A DNA stretch of 64,000 bases from Salminus brasiliensis (Eukaryota > Chordata > Actinopteri > Characiformes > Bryconidae), in assembly GCF_030463535.1 (NCBI RefSeq), contig NC_132900.1, positions 32,443,233-32,507,232 on the forward strand. Direction: 5' to 3'. A model generated the notes under the pieces. The model did not search any database and was not told the DNA's origin. It saw only the letters and a list, made by a program, of their open reading frames with translations. A program made the position numbers and the translations under genes. This document shows, in pieces, positions 26,008 to 46,800 of the stretch; the first letter of the stretch is position 1; each line of letters starts with the position of its first letter.

Positions 26008-29000
26008 ATGTCCTATTACTCCTCATCGTCTCGCGGGTCCTCCCGCAACATAGAATGCAAAGTGTACGTTGGAGATTTGGGCAGTGGCGCTGCTAAAGGT
26101 GAACTGGAGAGAGCTTTCAGCTACTACGGCCCTCTACGCAGCGTCTGGGTGGCGAGAAACCCACCTGGCTTCGCCTTTGTGGAATATGAAGATGCCCGGG
26201 ATGCAGAGGATGCTGTGAAAGGAATGGATGGAAAGTAGGTGTATATATATCATTAAGTGCTTATAAATCCTGATAAATCTTGTTTTTTGTTTCTAAATGA
26301 TTATAAAAGCTGTGTCACCAGCGGACAGAGACATTGAGGTTTGCGTCACATCTGTTTTTCATGTTCTTTTCAGGGTTCTCTGTGGATCTCGGATTCGCGT
26401 CGAGCTGTCCACCGGTATGTCCCGGAAAAGCCGATACGGTCGACCCAGTCGCCGCCAGTTTGACCCAAATGATCGCTGTTACCAGTGTGGAGACAGGGGC
26501 CACTACGCTTATGACTGTTATCGCTTCAGCAAAAGGGGACGTCGTAGCAGGTAAAAGTAAAAAATTAAACTTGTTACTTACTGTTACGCTGTCATAGTCT
26601 TAATATACTGACAGTCAAAAGATGCAGCATGCAAATGTGATGTAATCACTGATACACACAAATCTAACAAATCTGACTAACAGAAAGGGCGACTAGGAGA
26701 GTCAGTCATTATTTGTTGCTTTTCCTCTGGTCTTTTTCCACTACCACACAGGTTGTCATACTTTAAGATTTTTAAATGGCTGGAATTAATCTTACTTATC
26801 TTAATATTACTTCCCACACATTCTTCACCACTGTGAGGACTGTCCGATCCTGAGAAGTTCTCAATAGTATTTAAATCTGGTGACAGAGGTGCTTTGGCTG
26901 TTTTAAAAGTGTTGTTTCTCTTGTAGGTCCCGTTCTCGATCTCGATCCAGGTCTAGGTCCAGGGGCCGACGCAATCGTTCGCGCTCCCGAAGCCGCAGCA
27001 ATGACCGGTTGGAAATTTCATCATTATTTTCAAGCTGATTAGTATCTAATAATCTCATAATGTGATTATGCAAGACGCTAAACCATGGCAAGAGGCTACT
27101 ATTCCGACACATGAGCAGAATATTACCTTTTTACAAGTTGTTTTTGTAAATAAAGATTTATTTGTCTTCTGTGTTTTGCAGGAGGTACCGTTCTCCATCT
27201 TATTCTAAACGCAAGAGCAGGTGAGCTGTTGTAAACTCCTGCTAGATACCCGTAGCAGTTTCCAGTTGTTCATAGCTTAGAACAAACATGTAAAGTTATA
27301 CACTTGCCTTTTCCCTTTTGAAACCCTAACCCTAGGTCTGGTACTCCAGCCCGCTCAAAGTCCAGGACTCCTGTTCGGAGGTGAGGCGTCAGTCCGGAAT
27401 CGTTATTACATTGTTTGCTCATACAGGACCAGCCTTTACTCAAGAAGGCCATTTGCTCTTGTTTCCTTTCAGTCGCTCTCGATCTCGCTCTCGCTCCAGA
27501 TCTGCCTCGCGCTCGCGCTCTCGCTCCAGGTCCCGCTCACCCAACCCTAAAAGGGACAGGTAATTTTTTTTGGTCTCCAACAACATTATATTATAATATC
27601 TGCTAGTTTGTTACTTGTCATTTTTCTGCTCAATTATTTTATTGTTTAAAAGCATGTTTCTAATGAATAAATGATGTGGATTAGAATGTATTGTAGGCCG
27701 TCTACATTTCTATCACATATTGAGAAAGTCACTTAGCTCTTAAATAAATAAATAAATGTGACCTTTCACAGCTAGCTCAGATGAACCGGCTGCTTTTAGT
27801 CAGAAAACAGTATCTTCTGTTTAGTTGAGATTAGTCCGCCATACATGCACACAGTTTTCCCTGGAAACCCGCTTACACCTGAGGTAAGCCAGTCTTTTAG
27901 CCTGACAACGGAGACCCTTTGACGGAGATGGATGGACCGAGCAGGTGCAGGGAAGGCGGAGAATTTAGAGGTTAGGGATTTTTGACACACTCCAAAAACA
28001 AGCCCAGCCCATTCCCACTGTATGAAGTGCCTGAAATGTCCCTTTCTTGGAGATGACTTGTCCAGGCCATGCTTAGGTTCAGAGCTAACTCGCACACACA
28101 TACACCTCACAAGCCTAGATTCCAAGAGCCAGTATTTTGTATAAGGCCAAGGGCGTTAAGGGGAGGGACGTGTGATAAAACTTGGGGAATCTTCTCTTCT
28201 CTCTTCTCCCTCAGATTCAGCCTCATGTTGGTTAGCTACAGAGGGTGACCGAGATCGCAAATCTCCAAAAAAAAAAAATGTCATGATCAGACACCGGTGA
28301 CCAATTGCTGCAGGCTGTTCTTGTTTTTCTCTAAAGAGTGTGGGAGTCGACGGCTCAAGCACTGACCAGGCCTTGCCATGTTAAACGTCCTCCAGGAGGG
28401 TGACAAAAGAGCTTACCTGAGATCAGCCTCCGCCACGGTGATTTAGAGATCGTCCGACGCACAATTCTGACGAGACACCTCCTGCGCGTACACAAACAGT
28501 TGTTCCACCCACCCCACTCCTATCCCGAACCTATGCACTACTACTACTACTACTGCAGACCAGAATGCCCCCCTTCCCTCCAAAGCTCCGCCTTCTTGCT
28601 TAGCTTCTGAGAAGGGTTGTGAGAGAGAGAGAGAGAGAGGAGAGAGCTGGCGAGAGATCAGACTTCAAGACCCTCCGAGTGTGTCTTCGAGTTCTAGCAT
28701 CCGTCGCTTCTCTGTATGTTGTTTCCGCCACTGTCTCCTAAAGGTAACCAAAACCCAAGAGTTAATGTCCTTCTTGCTATGAGCCCTGGTTTCTAGTAAA
28801 ACCCAGAATCTTTTGTAAACTGTTGCTTAATACTGAGTGTGTGCAGAGCATGCACTGATTAACACCGCTGTGAGTGACTGAGTGAGCAGTGAGAAAGACC
28901 TCCGCTTCAACATTGTTTTTAACAAGCTCTTGTTGACTCCGCTCATAATTCCACCTCCTATTGGCTAAGACGAGTACAGGTCACCATACAGGCAGACAGT

Positions 29001-32456: not shown

Positions 32457-35400
32457 ATGGCGACGCAGGCGGCCCGGTACTACAGCGAGGGAGGCAGGGC
32501 GACGAAGCGCCAAAAAACGGACAACGACGGAGGAATGGCGAGTGTAAGGGGCCGTGAGTGGCCGGGGGAATGCTTCGGGTCCACGCAGTGTCTGTGCTGC
32601 CTTTATTCTCTTGCTGTTTGTCTGTTAGGGCTGAAACCGCGGCGGATAGCTCCCCTGCTAGCAGAGAGGGCAGGTCCCGGTCCAGAAAGTAACGATCCGC
32701 TCCGGCTCTTTGTTCCAGCTGCGTGGATGGCTGGACCGCGGCAGGGCCGGGACGAAATCGCGGAGCGGCTTTGTACCCTCTGGGTGTGGATCTGCTGGCT
32801 CTGCTGGGCTCGGTTGGACTCTTTGTTTCGTTGCGCTGAGATTGAGCCCGGGCTCGGCTCTGACTGAGCCCCACTGCGCCCGGACCTGCACACACCCGCC
32901 GCCGCCGACCGGCTGACCGAGCGGGCGAGTGCGGCTCTGCGGGCTGGTCGGGGGGCTGGTCGGGGGGCTGGTCGGGGGGCTGAATTGGGGGATGAATGGG
33001 GGGCGCTAGCGGGTTAGCATGGAAGCCGCGCCGTTTCAGCAGCAGGCCCGGCTCGGGTCCTCTGACCTCCTCCTGCCCGAAAGGAGTCTGAACTGGACGC
33101 AGATCCGCAGGATTAGAGGGTCAACAGCCTTAGGAGTCTTAAATGCGCGGGTTTTATATTAGATTGTGTTTTAAGAAAATAACAGAGATTCAGTCATTTC
33201 CTCTGTTTAGTAACGACATGCTCCCTAACAGTGTTCCGATCCAATACACTCGGCCCGCTGGCTGGCTGGCTGGCTGGCTCCCTCGGCCCAAAAATCCCCC
33301 CAGTGTAGCCCTCGCCCCCCCAGTGTAGTGATCTGTTCCCTGACTGCAGTAAGCGGGTTTCCTCAGATCTTTAGGGCAGTATGTTCTGTTAATACATCTG
33401 TTCACTTATTTATTATTAGATTAAAATGCTGTTCTCTGCACTGAGAGACTGCTGTAGTAAATGTAAATATATGCAGAGATTAAAGTCTGTAAATATCATT
33501 TTTGTACCCCAGTGTTTAGGAGCTCTGTGTGTGGGTCTGACTGGGCAGAATTTAGACATTCGTTTTCTTAGTTAGTTTAAATGAGCTCCCAGTGCAGTGT
33601 AAGTTTGGGTTCTGTTTATTATGTATTATGTTATTATAGTTTGGGTTTATTGGCACCTCTTACCTTTTTAAGGAGGTTTTGTAGCACAGTATGAATTCAT
33701 TCAGATCAGCTGTAAAACGTACTGAAGTTGTTTCCACTTTATTTGGGATCATTAGTGTCCGTCTCAGCGCTGTTACAGCCGCTCTCCTCAGACCGAGCTA
33801 AAGGCCAGAAGATAACAGTCGACTCTTTTCGGGGTTTTGAAAGTTGGGGTTTCTTCCTAATTGTAATCTGATTCCCTGTTTTGCAGGAGGGATATGACGA
33901 CCCTCACAAACCTCTCCCGTCCCTCGTGGTCCATGTAAGGGGGCTGGTGGATGGGGTTCTGGAGGCAGATCTTGTGGAAGCCCTGCAGGAGTTTGGAACC
34001 ATTAGGTAGGGTTTCTTTTTCACCAGCTGCTGCTTTTAGTGTTTTGTTTGGTTTTTAGTGTTTTATTCTGAGGGAATGGGTTTCTGTGTCTCTGCAGTTA
34101 TGTAGTGCTGATGCCCAAAAAGCGCCAGGCCCTGGTGGAGTACGAGGACATGAGTGGTTCGTGCAACGCGGTGACCTACGCCAACGACAACCAGATCTAC
34201 ATCGCTGGAAACCCTGCGTTTGTGAACTACTCCACCAGCCAGAAGATCTCCCGGCCCGGCGATCCCGACGACTCTCGCAGTGTTAATAATGTCCTGCTTT
34301 TCACAATCATGAACCCGATCTATCCCATCACCACGGTAAAGCCCACTAGCACTTCGTAGTGCTCTCAGATCTGTAATTCGTTTCCTAACGATCTGCTGGT
34401 TCTTCAGGGGTGTGGATATTCATTATTTCTCGTTATCCCGCAGGATGTGCTCTATACCATTTGCAACAACTGTGGGCCGGTACAGAGAATCGTCATCTTC
34501 AGGAAAAATGGTGTCCAGGCCATGGTAGAATATCCTTTACTGCTTCTGATGGAGCTGTGAATCAGCTTGTGTGGAGCAAGTGCTTAATACTGTGCTGCTG
34601 CACATCCAGCTCAGGAAAGTCTGTATGGAAAGGACATGTTTTAAAGAAATGGTTTTTTTGTCTATCAAATGTGTCTCGATTGGAAAAACTACCCCTGGGG
34701 TAAATGTAAATTAAGACAAAAGTATTCCTTTAATTTTTTAAAGAATACTAAATTTTAATGGAAAGCTGTATTCAGTTTGATCCTGGTATATAATTTCCTG
34801 TTTCAGAGAGATGTGTTAAAACATTTTGCTTTTTTAGTAGTGGAAGTTATTTCAGGTTTTAATTTAGAGCAGTTTGTATTAATGTCAGTTTTAAGTTTGT
34901 TTAGGTCATATTCAAACCCATTAAAGCAGCATAATTTGATTCGGGAACGTCTAACCTTGAATAACAGAAGGGTGGTTGCTGTTGTTTGTCTGTGTTGAAG
35001 ACATTATTTCTTTTTCCTTAATTATTCTTACGTTTGATTCAGTCCAGAGTGCCCAAAGGGCCAAGGCCTCTCTAAACGGCGCTGATATATACTCAGGCTG
35101 TTGCACGCTCAAAATTGAGTATGCTAAGGTAAGTGAGCGTCTGTGTTATTTTGACCCAGCTGTTTTGTGACTGGTGCAGATGATAAGAATCAGCTGAGAG
35201 AATGAAAGTGAATGTGCTGTGAGCGTAGTAATGTCGTTCACCTGCTGCAGGTTGTAATGGTCCTTGTTTTTCTTTGTTAGCCGACGCGCCTCAATGTTTT
35301 CAAGAATGATCAGGACACATGGGACTACACAAATCCAAACCTCAGCAGCCAAGGTAAAGTGGCCACTCCTCTTCTATTCTGACACTACTCAGCACCCTTA

Positions 35401-38400
35401 CTGCCACTGTGGGGAACAGATAAGCGGGTGGGACTGGGCCATGTTAAACCGACATTCAGGAGCAGCGTCACTTCACTGACCCGTGCCTTCCCTACAGAGA
35501 GTCGGCGCTCCGGCTCTGTAGAGGAGGCAGAGGGCTGGTATTGACGTTGTTAATGAATTGTTCTCGGCTTGTGAAACTCGTAAGAACGAGGGCAACCATC
35601 AGCACAACACTGCGGCTGTAGGCATGTCTTGGCCACAACTGTGCAGATCTCAGTTTTTATTTACTATTTATTTATTTTTTATGAGCACAGCTGAAGGAAG
35701 CTCGCCGTAGAACTGCAAACTTTAGATGAGCACCGTTGCTGCTTTAACGGCCGTGTGCATTATCCTAATTTGAGCTGATTGACTTTTGAGAACACTTAGT
35801 GAAGCACAGTGTGCAGTAGTATGACTTCCTTTGTTTGAAAGATTGGGAGGTTTGAATGTACCCCAGGTCCCCATCCCCGTTATGGTGGTGGCATTGCATA
35901 TCCTTTGTGGTAAGGCACCCGAACGCTGCAGTGTTGAGAATTTGCCTCTGACACAGCCCTACTCAGAACAAGCTCCCGTTCTCAACAAATCAGTGATGTG
36001 AGGAGCAACTGGACCACTGGGTATGTGTCCTTAAGGGAGGAACAGAAGTTCTGCTCCACAAGTTAATGTACGACTTCTCCGGCCATTTTTCATTGCCTTT
36101 TATTATTATTTATTTATTTTTGAGCACAGTGTTGTGCGCTATGTGTTTGTCCTGTCCTGATATTCAGACTACCCATGGATTCTCAAGATTTAAAATTAAA
36201 GGTGCTGGAGGAATGGCTTATGATGGGCCATTTTGGAAGGTATTGCCTTCCCGTAAGCGTTATGATGCCTGCTCATGGCCAGTTGCTCCTCAGCATCTAT
36301 GTCCTACACTTTATCATCCAAACCCAAAGCACAGAAACTGCCTCAACATCAGCTTCTACAACAGAACACACCTGGACACTGGAGAGCACTTCATACTTGC
36401 ACTGAAGACATTTCAGTTTCAACATAACTGCCTACAGCACATTACCAGTCAGCCATCATTGGTCCTACACCTACAAGAGCAAGGAAAACACCTACCCCGC
36501 CCTCAGTGAAAGCAGGCTCAGTAGTGAGACGACATTTTGACACTCCATACGAGACACATCTGTCCATACAACACTCTGTCCATGCACGCATCTTCCTACT
36601 GAACCAGCACTGCCCTACAGCCACGAAGACGCGCTCCCCAGGTTTCTAACTAGTTGTGCCTCGTATTTGTGCTCCAAGAACAAGACACACTCTACTATGA
36701 CACCGCACCACCACCTCACTGCTGACAGAGGAGGCTCTTCAGAGGGGAAAACACGATATTGACAGAAAAGACAAGTTACAGTGCATTCACACCAAACAGA
36801 TGACGTCCACAGACACACTGCAGTTGCTCCAGAAAACAAACTGCCGCCTTTGAACCCTACATGTGTTTGGGTGTACCTATTTTTTTGCTTTCTGTCCCTC
36901 TTCCTTACAATCTCCTCGTGCTGATGAACACAAACATTCACACGCCATGTAGAAAACCTCGAAGGTTCCACCTTACTGACTCAGACTTATCGCCCTGATC
37001 ACTGGAAGGGATCCACCAGTCCACCAGTGACGAGGAAGACATGCCAAACACACTGACACGCAGGCAGACAACACGCCAACTTTTCAACTCACCCCCTCCG
37101 TGCTGACGTACGTTACGGAGTATAGCCTGCTTGCCCCTTCACCCCACCTTTACTGATCTTATCCAACATAACCTACTCCCTCTGTAGGCTGCCCTACATC
37201 TCCTTAAACATTCTGCCACTCTCAATGTGTGACTTCATTTTTTTTTTCTTTATATTTTGGTCTTATGACTACCTTCTGTAATGCCTTCCAATATGATGCA
37301 GGTTTGGCATTGTCTCTAGTGGGAACTGTCTGAAATGTGCAAAAAGCCAACATTGCAGCCTGCGCGTGATGAGAAGGAAAATGTGTTCAAATGAAAGTGT
37401 GGAGCGCACAAGGACTGCACTGGGACTTTAATCTTGGACAAAGAGGATGGCCAGAAGCGGCTGTGGAACTGAACTGAGTGGGGAGGAAAATGGAGAAATG
37501 TGTAAATGTGGCGTGGCAGCGACGAAGAGGTGTGTGCGTCGCCCCCGTGGCTTATTTACATCTCGCGCTACCTGCCTCACCCTCTGCCCCCCTACTTGAG
37601 TTTCGGCTGTAAGTAACCCCAAGCTTATGTTGTCTTGGAGTGATGCTCTCATTTGGTTTTGTTTCAAGAGGTTCTGTGACCAAAAAAATGTGTTCTGACT
37701 AACTTGCTTTTGTTCCCCTTCCAAAGAGTGAGTACTCCTCCAGCGGACTCATCAGTCTCCTGTTGTTCTGCAGTGTGGAGTTGTTTTCAGTAATGCTATG
37801 TTGAACAGAGGCAGATTTAATTCATGCTTTCTAGAAAACCCTTTGTTTGTTTGTTTGTTTATTTTAAGTTAAGCTACTTGCTGTGCTTTTGTGGCCATTC
37901 AGAGCGAACATGTGATCCTCGACCATGCAGCACATTTTCAGCAGTAGCCCTGTCCTTGTCTTGCGTTAAAACGAATGCACAGAAAATAGCTTGAGATTGA
38001 TGTTTGCAATATGTGTACCTGAACAGGTGCAGACGCTGATGGCAATGGGGGCGATCAAGGTGTGTGCATCAGGCTTTTTCTCTCTTTACTGTTTTCCCCT
38101 GTAAATCCACCCTCTGCTAGATAACCGAGTCACAGTCGGCCGGCCTTGTTCTTTTGGTGGGTTTGTGAAGTTAGTTGCTGCACGCTAGTGGGGTCTGCAG
38201 ACCTAGGGTTGGTGCACGTTTCCCTAAAGCCCATCATGTTTGTATTTTATCTCCACCAAATGGAGGAAGTATGGGTTTTCTCCCCCTGTCCCTTTTGCTG
38301 CCCCCCCCCCCCCCCAAAGCGCACTTAATTGAATGTCAGGCTATAAACAGAGTAGATTCCTATTTTGCTGCTTCTCAGCAAATTCATTTTCCACACTTTC

Positions 38401-39580: not shown

Positions 39581-39634
<54 letters not shown>

Positions 39635-41720: not shown

Positions 41721-43285
41721 TTGGGTCAGTGTGGGACAGTGTGGGTCAGTGGGGGTGAGTGTGGGACAGTGTGGGTCAGTGTGGGTGAGTGTGGGTCAGT
41801 GTGGGACAGTGTGGGTCAGTGTGGGTCAGTGTGGGTGAGTGTGGGACAGTGTGGGTGAGTGTGGGACAGTGTGGGTGAGTGTGGGTCAGTGTGGGTGAGT
41901 GTGGGACAGTGTCGGACAGTGTGGGTGAGTGTGGGACAGTGTGGGTGAGTGTGGGACAGTGTCGGACAGTGTGGGTGAGTGTGGGACAGTGTGGGTGAGT
42001 GTGGGACAGTGTGGGACAGTGTGGGTCAGTGTGGGTCAGTGTGGGTGAGTGTGGGACAGTATCGGACAGTGTGGGTCAGTGTGGGACAGTGTGGGTGAGT
42101 GTGGGACAGTGTGGGTCAGTGTGGGTCAGTGTGGGACAGTGTGGGTGAGTGTGGGACAGTGTGGGTGAGTGTGGGTGAGTGTGGGACAGTGTGGGTCAGT
42201 GTGGGACAGTGTGGGTCAGTGTGGGACAGTGTGGGTGAGTGTGGGACAGTGTGGGACAGTGTGGGTGAGTGTGGGTGAGTGTGGGTCAGTGTGGGTGAGT
42301 GTGGGACAGTGTGGGACAGTGTGGGTGAGTGTGGGACAGTGTGGGTCAGTGTGGGACAGTGTCGGACAGTGTGGGTGAGTGTGGGACAGTGTGGGTCAGT
42401 GTGGGACAGTGTGGGTGAGTGTGGGACAGTGTGGGACAGTGTGGGTCAGTGTGGGTCAGTGTGGGTGAGTGTGGGACAGTATCGGACAGTGTGGGTCAGT
42501 GTGGGACAGTGTGGGTGAGTGTGGGACAGTGTGGGTCAGTGTGGGTCAGTGTGGGACAGTGTGGGTGAGTGTGGGACAGTGTGGGTGAGTGTGGGTGAGT
42601 GTGGGACAGTGTGGGTCAGTGTGGGACAGTGTGGGTGAGTGTGGGACAGTGTGGGACAGTGTGGGTGAGTGTGGGTGAGTGTGGGTCAGTGTGGGTGAGT
42701 GTGGGACAGTGTGGGACAGTGTGGGTGAGTGTGGGTGAGTGTGGGTCAGTGTGGGTGAGTGTGGGACAGTGTGGGACAGTGTGGGTGAGTGTGGGACAGT
42801 GTGGGTCAGTGTGGGACAGTGTCGGACAGTGTGGGTGAGTGTGGGACAGTGTGGGTCAGTGTGGGACAGTGTGGGTGAGTGTGGGACAGTGTGGGACAGT
42901 GTGGGTCAGTGTGGGTGAGTGTGGGACAGTATCGGACAGTGTGGGACAGTATCGGACAGTGTGGGTGAGTGTGGGACAGTGTGGGACAGTGTGGGTGAGT
43001 GTGGGACAGTGTGGGACAGTGTGGGTCAGTGTGGGTGAGTGTGGGACAGTATCGGACAGTGTGGGACAGTGTGGGTCAGTGTCGGACAGTGTGGGTGAGT
43101 GTGGGACAGTGTGGGTCAGTGTGGGACAGTGTGGGACAGTGTGGGTCAGTGTGGGTCAGTGTGGGACAGTATCGGACAGTGTGGGTCAGTGTGGGACAGT
43201 GTGGGTCAGTGTGGGACAGTGTCGGACAGTGTGGGTGAGTGTGGGACAGTGTGGGTCAGTGTGGGACAGTGTGGGACAGTGTCGG
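41721..43285. repeat. 10-bp minisatellite, about 156 units, between hnrnpl and ech1
   Basis: A strict 10-bp period holds for about 1.56 kb. Units are almost all one of GTGGGTCAGT, GTGGGACAGT, GTGGGTGAGT, with rarer GTCGGACAGT and ATCGGACAGT. The order of unit types is itself repeated: 42001-42210 and 42421-42630 agree base for base, giving a higher-order repeat of about 420 bp. Long open frames inside it (VGQCG-type translations) are artefacts of a 30-bp codon period without stops. Confidence 0.98.
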
Positions 43286-43827: not shown

Positions 43828-46800
43828 ATGAGCTCCATGATCAGATCTGCTGTGTTTGGAAGTAAGTAAGGAGGCTGTGCTGCTTCTCTCAGCTCGGCTT
43901 CAGCTCCTGTATTCCTCCTCCACCTGAGCTCCTCCACCTGAGCTCCTCCACCTGAAGATCTTCATGCTGCTCCTGCTGGAGGAGCAGAGCTGAGAGCTGA
44001 GCTCCTCTCCTCCTCCTTCAGGAGCTGCTTTCTAGAAGAGCTCAGACTCCAGCCCTGCAGCTTCTCCACTGTGGAGCTTTTAGATCGGACTGGGTTCTTT
44101 GGCTCCTCACTGCTCAGACCTGCCCGTCACCTCAGCTGACCCTGCTCTGTAGGAGTCATGTGGGATCTCTAGAAGCTGGTCTGATGTACTGAGCGTGTTC
44201 AGCAGCTGTTATATGAGGGGTTTATTGTGAATTTCTACAAACGCACTGATGAAGTAAGGCTGTGTGCATCTGCTGGAGGAAGTGGGTGAGAGGTCAGAGG
44301 CTGGGCTACAGCTACAGGTCAGCTGTAAAAGTCAGAGATCTGCAGGTCTGGATGAATCAGGATATGAAGTCAATAATCATACAGAGATCAGAGAAGATTC
44401 ATTAGCTGTCTAAAAGTTTATAAACAATCCGAAGGTCTTCTCTGTCCTACTGCAGAGCCGTTAACTGGGGTTACTGATCATATTGATATTAATGATAATA
44501 GAGGAGAGCTGAAACTATGGTTAATAATTCATTTTCATAATTTCATTATTATTATTTCATAACTGCTAACCATGTTTCTTAAAGCTGCTCTCCTTAGTTT
44601 GGCACAGGGGCGCCATATTCCCTCTGCTCGGATTTTGTCCAGTTGTGTGTTCCTGTGTAAATATATATTTTTTCATGAGTCCAAATTCCCTGCAGCGCTC
44701 CTGTCTGGGTGTCGTTCAGCCTGCCATGCTGTTCTTCTTGTTGGCAGATATTCAACATGAGACTTGATGTACATTCATTTCTAACAGCTGCAGATATGTT
44801 TGGTGCCACTGTGCATTTTTTAATTTCCTAATCTGCAACCCAGCCAGTCGAACACAAGCGCGTGCATGACGAAAACCTTTATGTTGAAGTTTAGGCTTCA
44901 GGCATTGGGCCGGCACTGTTGTCCAGGGCAGCTCCTGTTCCACCGGTAGGAGAATGTGGAGTTAGGAGTGTTAAGCGCAGTTTCACCATCAGGGCTTTTC
45001 TTGTGTTTGATCCATAGTTTTCAGGGTTGAATGAGCAGCTGGAATAGTAATATTATGGATGTATTGATTGATCAGGCAGGGGACTGTGGCGTCCTGCGCT
45101 GACTGCTGTTAGAGCCATGTCTGCCTCAGGACCCACCCCACCTTTCACCACCCTGTCGGTCAGCAAGCCAGCCACTCATGTGACCCACGTGGAGCTGCAC
45201 CGCCCTGAGAAACGCAACGCCATGAACAAGGCCTTCTGGAGGTATGCAGTTCTGTCACTCTCCCAAAAAAGTCAAAGTTCATGGAGATAAATCTGACCTG
45301 AGCTGAGTGGTGTAGAAATATCCCTGTATGAAAAGGTTTGCAGTAATAAAGTTAATGACTGTATCCCCCAGGACGAGGGAGGGGGGAGTGGACGGGCCTG
45401 TACTCCTCTTTCAGGCAGAGCTGCTTTAATATGGCTTTTCTTTCTGCAGTGAAATGGTTGATTGCTTTAACCAGATCGCAGTGGACCCAGAATGCCGTGT
45501 GGTGGTCCTCTCAGGTGCTGGGAAGATTTTCACAGCAGGTAAAGTCATTCCCAGCCCCTCTCCTCCTGAACATCCTTCTCCTTCATTACTCCATCCACTT
45601 TCTGTAGTCTGTCAGTTCCACTGGCAGCAGAACAGCCCCAGAGTATGATGCTACCCCCACCATGTTTAACAGCTGGTACAGTATTCCTGGGGTTGAATGC
45701 CTCACCTTTACTCCTCCAAACAGAGCTCTGGTCACTGTAGCCAAACAACCCTGTACCTTGTTGGGTTTTAGGATGCTCCTGACCATTCAAACTAATTTCC
45801 TGAAGCTCTGTTTGGGGCAGATTTTGATGCAGTCCATCACTGAAAGTTGTCTCCTGTATTTTTTCCTGTTTTAACTGATTTATTTGGGAAATGTTTGCAT
45901 CTTTATGAGTTCGGGTTAAAGCTCGTGAGTGTGTGTCTGAGGTTCTGTGGAGTGATGCAAACCCTGTGATTAGGGATTGACCTTATGGACATGGCTAGTG
46001 ACATCATTCAGCCTCAAGAAGAAGAAGACGACGCCGCCAGGACGTCATGGCAGCTTCGGCGCATCATCACCAAATACCAGGAAACGTTCTCCGTCATTGA
46101 AAAGGTTCCCTCATCACATTAGTACTGATATTACACATTATTTAACATATCAGCTAAAACAGAGCTGTGTGTTTTTTTTACAGCATTAATAAATGTTTAA
46201 TAAATGTTTTATTTATTTTTATTATTTTTATTTTCTTTCACATTTTTTAATGTTTATGTTTAATCTTATGTAAATGCAGTTGTGATGTTTTATGTTTTAT
46301 TACAGAATCTTATAAGAGAGAATTATTGATTTATTTATGAATAATTATTTTTGTTTCTGTCTCTATTATAAGTTATTAATAATGATACAGAATTGGTGGA
46401 TCATGTGCCTCGTCACAAATCTGTGATGTTTCTGTGCAGTGTCCGAAGCCGGTGGTGGTGGCGGTGCATGGGGCGTGTATCGGAGGAGGTCAGTTTGGGT
46501 TCGTTGTTTTGTGCAAATGTTAATGCACTGATTTTTTTTTTTATTAATTTTATTAATTTGTGTGTGTGTGTGTGTGTGTGTTGCTCTGGCAGGGGTGGAC
46601 CTGATCACAGCCTGTGATATCCGTCTCTGTACGCAGGACGCTTGGTTTCAGGTGAAGGTATGATGAAAACCTCACTTTACAGTTTTCTGTCTCTAATGAA
46701 ACACTAATTTTCCACCCATCAAATTAGAAATATTCATTAAAATGTATATTGGGGTATCTCTGCATTATAATGAAATATATGCTCTAAATGCAGTTTATTT

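Follow-up and report, generated by a model that had tools for sequence, protein, structure and literature searches.

The window analysed here, a stretch of 64,000 nt, carries an hnrnpl gene in which one intron appears to begin with AT and to end with AC, and this raises two questions: is the interval a genuine U12-type intron, and would the supply of hnRNP L then depend on the minor spliceosome? Besides the main splicing machinery, vertebrates possess a minor spliceosome of low abundance, and the recognition and removal of U12-type introns by this machinery are well established. The donor consensus of such introns reads ATATCCTTT, while the branch consensus against which we scored, TTCCTTRAC, is located near the 3' end. 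Membership in the U12-type class is defined by the 5' splice site together with the branch site (PMC3584512), and an optimum of 11-13 nt is cited for the distance from branch to 3' end in PMC6717393. The features that matter for the argument are the following.

34530..35031, + strand: very probable U12-type AT-AC intron of 502 nt, recognised by its termini, the reading frame, motif scores and a matching intron in two paralogues
34444..34529, + strand: hnrnpl exon 4, the donor exon (RRM2, ending in ...RIVIFRKNGVQAMVE), with GA as last bases and phase 2, from join enumeration, gene model and PDB match to hnRNP L RRM2
34530..34538, + strand: U12-type 5' splice site ATATCCTTT, 9/9 by consensus scoring
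35014..35022, + strand: U12-type branch-site motif TTCCTTAAT, 8/9, with its 8th base 10 nt before the last intron base
35030..35031, + strand: 3' terminal AC, from sequence and gene model
35032..35128, + strand: hnrnpl exon 5 (FDSVQSAQRAKASLNGADIYSGCCTLKIEYAK), the acceptor exon, from join enumeration and gene model
34530..34560, + strand: read-through upon retention, 10 codons (the first being the split codon) and then TGA at 34558-34560

The gene model rests on exon anchors chosen by eye. Exons 3-13 are stop-free from YVVLMPKKRQ to the terminal STAQHAN and its stop codon, and exons 1 (32457-32543) and 2 (33887-34005) were joined in frame by hand. Translation of exons 3-13 yields 454 residues that reach 568.3 bits against NCBIfam TIGR01649 (hnRNP-L/PTB; cut-off 287.4). 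In the PDB, this translation is matched best by chains of hnRNP L RRM3/4 and RRM2, ahead of HNRNPLL and PTBP, and RRM2 differs from the 2mqm chain in only 2 of 85 residues. The peptide encoded by exons 4-5 is identical to HNRNPL in 60 of 61 positions and to HNRNPLL in 47 of 61. Judged by these sequences, the window gene is closer to HNRNPL than to HNRNPLL within the hnRNP-L/PTB family. A Pfam search with the 30-aa exon 4 peptide alone retrieved no family, and none of the pattern stretches found with the RRM2 peptide in viral contigs (0/9) or genome contigs (0/42) was confirmed as a relative. The surroundings of the gene were also inspected. At 26008-27560 resides a gene encoding an RRM, a CCHC zinc knuckle and an RS-rich tail, which we take to be srsf7-like. 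Exon peptides at 45117-45540 resemble enoyl-CoA hydratase (one of two matches ECH_1, below the Pfam cut-off) and presumably belong to an ech1-like gene. We assume that this srsf7-hnrnpl-ech1 neighbourhood resembles human ones. Downstream of hnrnpl, a minisatellite in which a G-rich 20-bp unit is repeated about 78 times occupies 41722-43282 and is likely to explain the strong GC skew of its bin.

Eleven of the twelve hnrnpl introns are of the GT-AG type and one is AT-AC. The latter interrupts RRM2 after ...QAMVE, starts with ATATCCTTTA and ends with TTCCTTAATTATTCTTAC, and MVEFDSVQSAQRAK is restored when 34529 is joined to 35032. The original prediction regarded this as the only join that restores VEFDSVQS, a statement that has to be corrected: when donor ends 34505-34559 were combined with acceptor starts 35015-35059, three joins restored the peptide. 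AT..AC termini are found only at 34529/35032, while the other two joins feature TA..CG and AT..GT, and as these fit no class known to us, only the AT-AC join makes sense. The proposal to score both ends against the U12 consensus was borne out, with agreement at 9 of 9 donor positions and 8 of 9 branch positions of the consensus, combined with frame-keeping AT and AC termini at the junctions; the departure in the branch motif is its last base. In the other eleven introns, agreement with the U12 consensus never exceeds 4 of the 7 donor positions tested, and at the branch 4-7 of 9 positions fit. Two further details need adjustment. The branch motif TTCCTTAAT is separated from the terminal AC by 7 nt and not by the 9 nt initially given, a figure obtained only when the AC itself is included, and with 502 bp the intron is not short but the third longest among the twelve of hnrnpl.

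Signals of this kind may be met by accident, and a chance motif or a mis-joined gene model would then mimic a minor intron. The 5' motif is indeed common across the genome: ATATCCTTTA-N2-20-AC yields 2318 matches genome-wide versus 2575 for the reversed control, where one site is countable at several gap lengths. Because genome matches are not enriched over the reversed control, the 5' motif alone is uninformative and is no evidence for an intron; independent support comes from the paralogues described below. The pair of motifs behaves differently from the 5' motif. Defined as exact ATATCCTTT and, at a separation of 60-5000 nt, TTCCTTAA[CT] followed by 6-12 nt and AC, it has a single instance on the window's + strand and none on its - strand, and it was encountered anywhere in just 3 of 600 dinucleotide-shuffled strands, a count made without requiring the join that the protein demands. 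Given also that the same site is found in two paralogues with a diverged interior, we attach virtually no credence to an accident of this kind and return to the U12-type intron.

When the 1.07-Gb genome that includes the window was searched at the protein level, with all 21 candidates scored and counts for large families being lower bounds, at least 13 matches were obtained: three in the window, three in an hnrnpl2-like gene on C1, two in an hnrnpll-like gene on C17 and five that are weaker, PTB-like or ambiguous. Over 61 residues, the hnrnpl2-like protein agrees with HNRNPL in 60 and with HNRNPLL in 47 positions, while the hnrnpll-like protein agrees with HNRNPLL in 56 and with HNRNPL in 48. 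In both paralogues, the donor exon ends with ...ATGGT(T/G)GA and is followed by ATATCCTT, and the AT-AC join restores QAMVEF(D/E)SVQ, the codon and phase being identical to those in hnrnpl. The hnrnpl2-like intron comprises 445 nt (ATATCCTTC with TTCCTTGAC) and has a 9/9 branch motif at 11 nt from the 3' end. Its hnrnpll-like counterpart comprises 4035 nt (ATATCCTTA with TCCCTTGAC) and has an 8/9 branch motif at 15 nt, a distance outside the cited optimum of 11-13 nt. This latter intron (C17:30793000-30801500) is 8-9 times longer than the other two and features a (GT)n run from about 56 nt onwards. CA words amount to 1.12 per 100 nt in the 445-nt and 2.35 per 100 nt in the 4035-nt paralogue intron, and in the hnrnpll-like gene they may offer hnRNP L binding sites within a minor intron. 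On C11, a PTB-like copy (L017) continues through the homologous codon uninterrupted by an intron. It is the only PTB-like copy readable at this codon; in the weaker match L021, the matched exon starts downstream.

Local alignment of hnrnpl with hnrnpl2 extends 11 nt past the AT-AC donor versus 3, 4, 2 and 4 nt past four aligned GT-AG donors. On the acceptor side, it covers 19 nt of the AT-AC intron, up to the branch motif, compared with 5, 17, 6 and 3 nt at four GT-AG acceptors, and is weaker support because one GT-AG acceptor also reaches 17 nt. Between hnrnpl and hnrnpll, the alignment continues for 13 nt past the donor and for only 2 nt before the acceptor. The interior of the AT-AC intron did not give any local alignment between the genes, and a global alignment of hnrnpl and hnrnpl2 contained no long conserved block. 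The exon 6-7 introns of hnrnpl and hnrnpl2 gave no alignment, but this says little about their conservation, as the hnrnpl2 stretch used was also unmatched to exons 7-13, a poly-T run excepted. An uninterrupted run of 50 T is present in the exon 10-11 intron of hnrnpl (39582-39631).

Since three hnRNP L genes share the site and a PTB-like copy is without it, the intron is most simply explained as ancestral to the hnRNP L family: it would predate the family's split and is missing in one PTB-like gene or more. This view is founded on a single genome together with the HNRPLL case from the literature. The intron seems to be a long-standing trait of the family and not peculiar to one gene. The existence of a U12-type AT-AC intron in hnrnpl, the core of the original prediction, is upheld by sequence signals, the in-frame gene model and the presence of the same intron in two paralogues, and we are confident that 34530-35031 represents a genuine member of this class, one that most probably goes back to the ancestor of the hnRNP L family and has been preserved at a single RRM2 codon in the three family genes found here.

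Which machinery would remove this intron, and by which sites? The rare U2-type AT-AC class is not known to carry the U12 donor and branch consensus. Here, this consensus is near-perfect and kept in three genes, and although U2-type AT-AC introns do exist (PMC6717393, PMC3584512), removal by the major spliceosome appears highly improbable. U12-type AU-AC introns, in addition, seem to be poorly recognised by the U2-type spliceosome (PMC10853781). Another arrangement is that of a twintron, in which a competing U2-type intron at the same place gives rise to an alternative RRM2, as in human HNRPLL. The gene is listed among 18 human twintron genes, its products measure 537 aa by the U12 and 536 aa by the U2 route with slight RRM changes, and the ancestral intron is reported as U12-type in all 18 and the presence of these twintrons as highly conserved in vertebrates (PMC3564746). 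In hnrnpl, an AG with a pyrimidine-rich lead is situated 11 nt into exon 5, ending at 35042, and might serve as the acceptor of such an intron. No strong U2 pair emerged from the search. On a crude matrix, U2 donors within the intron reach 5.4 at most versus 5.2-12.4 for nine scored hnrnpl donors, a value that overlaps the weakest real donor (5.2), and every frame-keeping U2 pair found has a donor of 2.7 or less on the same crude matrix. The nearest GT follows the start of the U12 donor by 27 nt in hnrnpl, 15 nt in the hnrnpl2-like and 21 nt in the hnrnpll-like gene. A twintron at the hnrnpl site is therefore unlikely, and we prefer a single intron processed by the minor spliceosome.

The class as such is well known and the case of the paralogue HNRPLL has already been published. 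As described by Janice 2013 (PMC3564746), the U12-type intron of HNRPLL (HNRNPLL) affects an RRM and is conserved in vertebrates, and the hnrnpll-like gene in the present genome has its AT-AC intron at the hnrnpl position. HNRPLL differs by its alternative U2-type intron, of which we see no good trace here. SRSF10 is similar in that a splicing regulator contains an AT-AC U12-type intron that must be removed for full-length mRNA (PMC7244321, PMC8329584), and it illustrates minor-spliceosome control of a splicing factor through an autoregulated minor intron. In contrast to hnrnpl, where none was seen, SRSF10 has a competing U2-type intron, and it also features an enhancer responsive to SRSF10 as well as an alternative exon 3 that contains a polyadenylation signal (PMC8329584). 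A further hnRNP gene, human HNRNPM, likewise carries a U12-type intron alongside U2-type ones (PMC10853781), but it belongs to a different gene family. The USSE of SNRNP48/RNPC3 also brings the sequence of a U12-type 5' splice site into a gene for a splicing factor, yet as a tandem repeat that is not used as a donor (PMC8329584), whereas hnrnpl has a single site at an exon end. In the literature searched, which left supplementary tables and most subscription papers aside, the HNRNPL intron itself was not found named as U12-type. What is new, as read from the sequences, is that the three hnRNP L-family members identified in a single genome share an AT-AC intron at one codon.

Following knowledge of the class, U11/U12 would bind ATATCCTTT and the branch motif, U4atac/U6atac.U5 would join the exons, and splicing of 34529 to 35032 would yield the RRM2 coding sequence. 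If the intron stayed in, the observed frame would reach a stop after 10 codons, so that full-length hnRNP L could not be made; the retained RNA would probably be decayed or held in the nucleus. It follows from class knowledge that full-length hnRNP L would require U11/U12 and U4atac/U6atac.U5. Stops upon retention occur after 10, 10 and 4 codons in hnrnpl, the hnrnpl2-like and the hnrnpll-like gene, respectively. As a retained intron would block the full-length protein, the three genes would share one need for the minor spliceosome. By sequence, this need is not peculiar to hnrnpl but common to the three family genes found, and the U12-type intron of HNRPLL is in print. An Rfam search for U12 in the genome, with 44 of 48180 candidates scored, found none, but this is uninformative, as the same search detects U12 in 0 of 14 control genomes. 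A query with the presumed human U12 5' end had no match in the genome at up to two mismatches, and on the window Rfam gave no match at the gathering score.

Minor-spliceosome activity could set hnRNP L dose, as originally suggested, and the idea is plausible because each of the three genes would run into a stop 4-10 codons into the retained intron. Taken further, U12 splicing of hnrnpl would be slow and limiting, such that the level of the minor spliceosome determines that of hnRNP L, a scheme already put forward for many genes with minor introns and an addition to the minor-intron reading and not its replacement. Expression of minor-intron genes has been described as limited by U6atac (PMC3728624), and SRSF10 offers a precedent (PMC7244321, PMC8329584). 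These are, however, precedents from the class, and dependence on U6atac varies widely, its low end apparently being made up of 44 of 223 introns (PMC3728624). The intron interior lacks a block conserved between hnrnpl and hnrnpl2, no elements specific to dose control were seen in it, and a known second control, the poison exon 6A loop, could act as a buffer (PMC7547044). We thus regard such a dose switch as conceivable but doubtful.

That loop operates through binding of hnRNP L to the intron just upstream of exon 6A, by which the protein promotes its own poison exon (PMC7547044). The exon 6-7 intron of the window gene (3115 nt) contains a CA-rich stretch at about 36254-37153 (C+A 0.53-0.63), in which six 150-nt bins hold 33 CACA/ACAC words versus 50 in the whole intron. 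This stretch is a candidate hnRNP L-binding autoregulatory element near poison exon 6A. Self-binding of hnRNP L near the AT-AC intron was considered as well and dismissed, with a single CACA/ACAC word in 502 nt. A second ATATCCTTT is present in the exon 6-7 intron (35898-35915), and 12 nt downstream of where it starts there is a good U2-type donor, GTGGTAAGG (GT at 35910, score 8.4). This second copy may be accidental, or U11 may bind there next to a cassette exon.

Taken by itself, such an intron is nothing unusual among the several hundred genes with minor introns. Its occurrence in three genes renders a family-wide dependence testable, as all three should respond together. We tentatively put forward, as a possibility well short of probable, that all hnRNP L-family genes found here depend on the minor spliceosome at a common RRM2 codon, no paralogue without the AT-AC intron being available as an escape, that the output of this machinery jointly gates this family of CA-repeat splicing regulators upstream of poison-exon autoregulation, and that a loss of hnRNP L function is part of minor-spliceosome disease. 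If the shared intron ties hnRNP L supply to U6atac or U12, disorders of the minor spliceosome may owe some of their secondary splicing damage to effects on hnRNP L targets.
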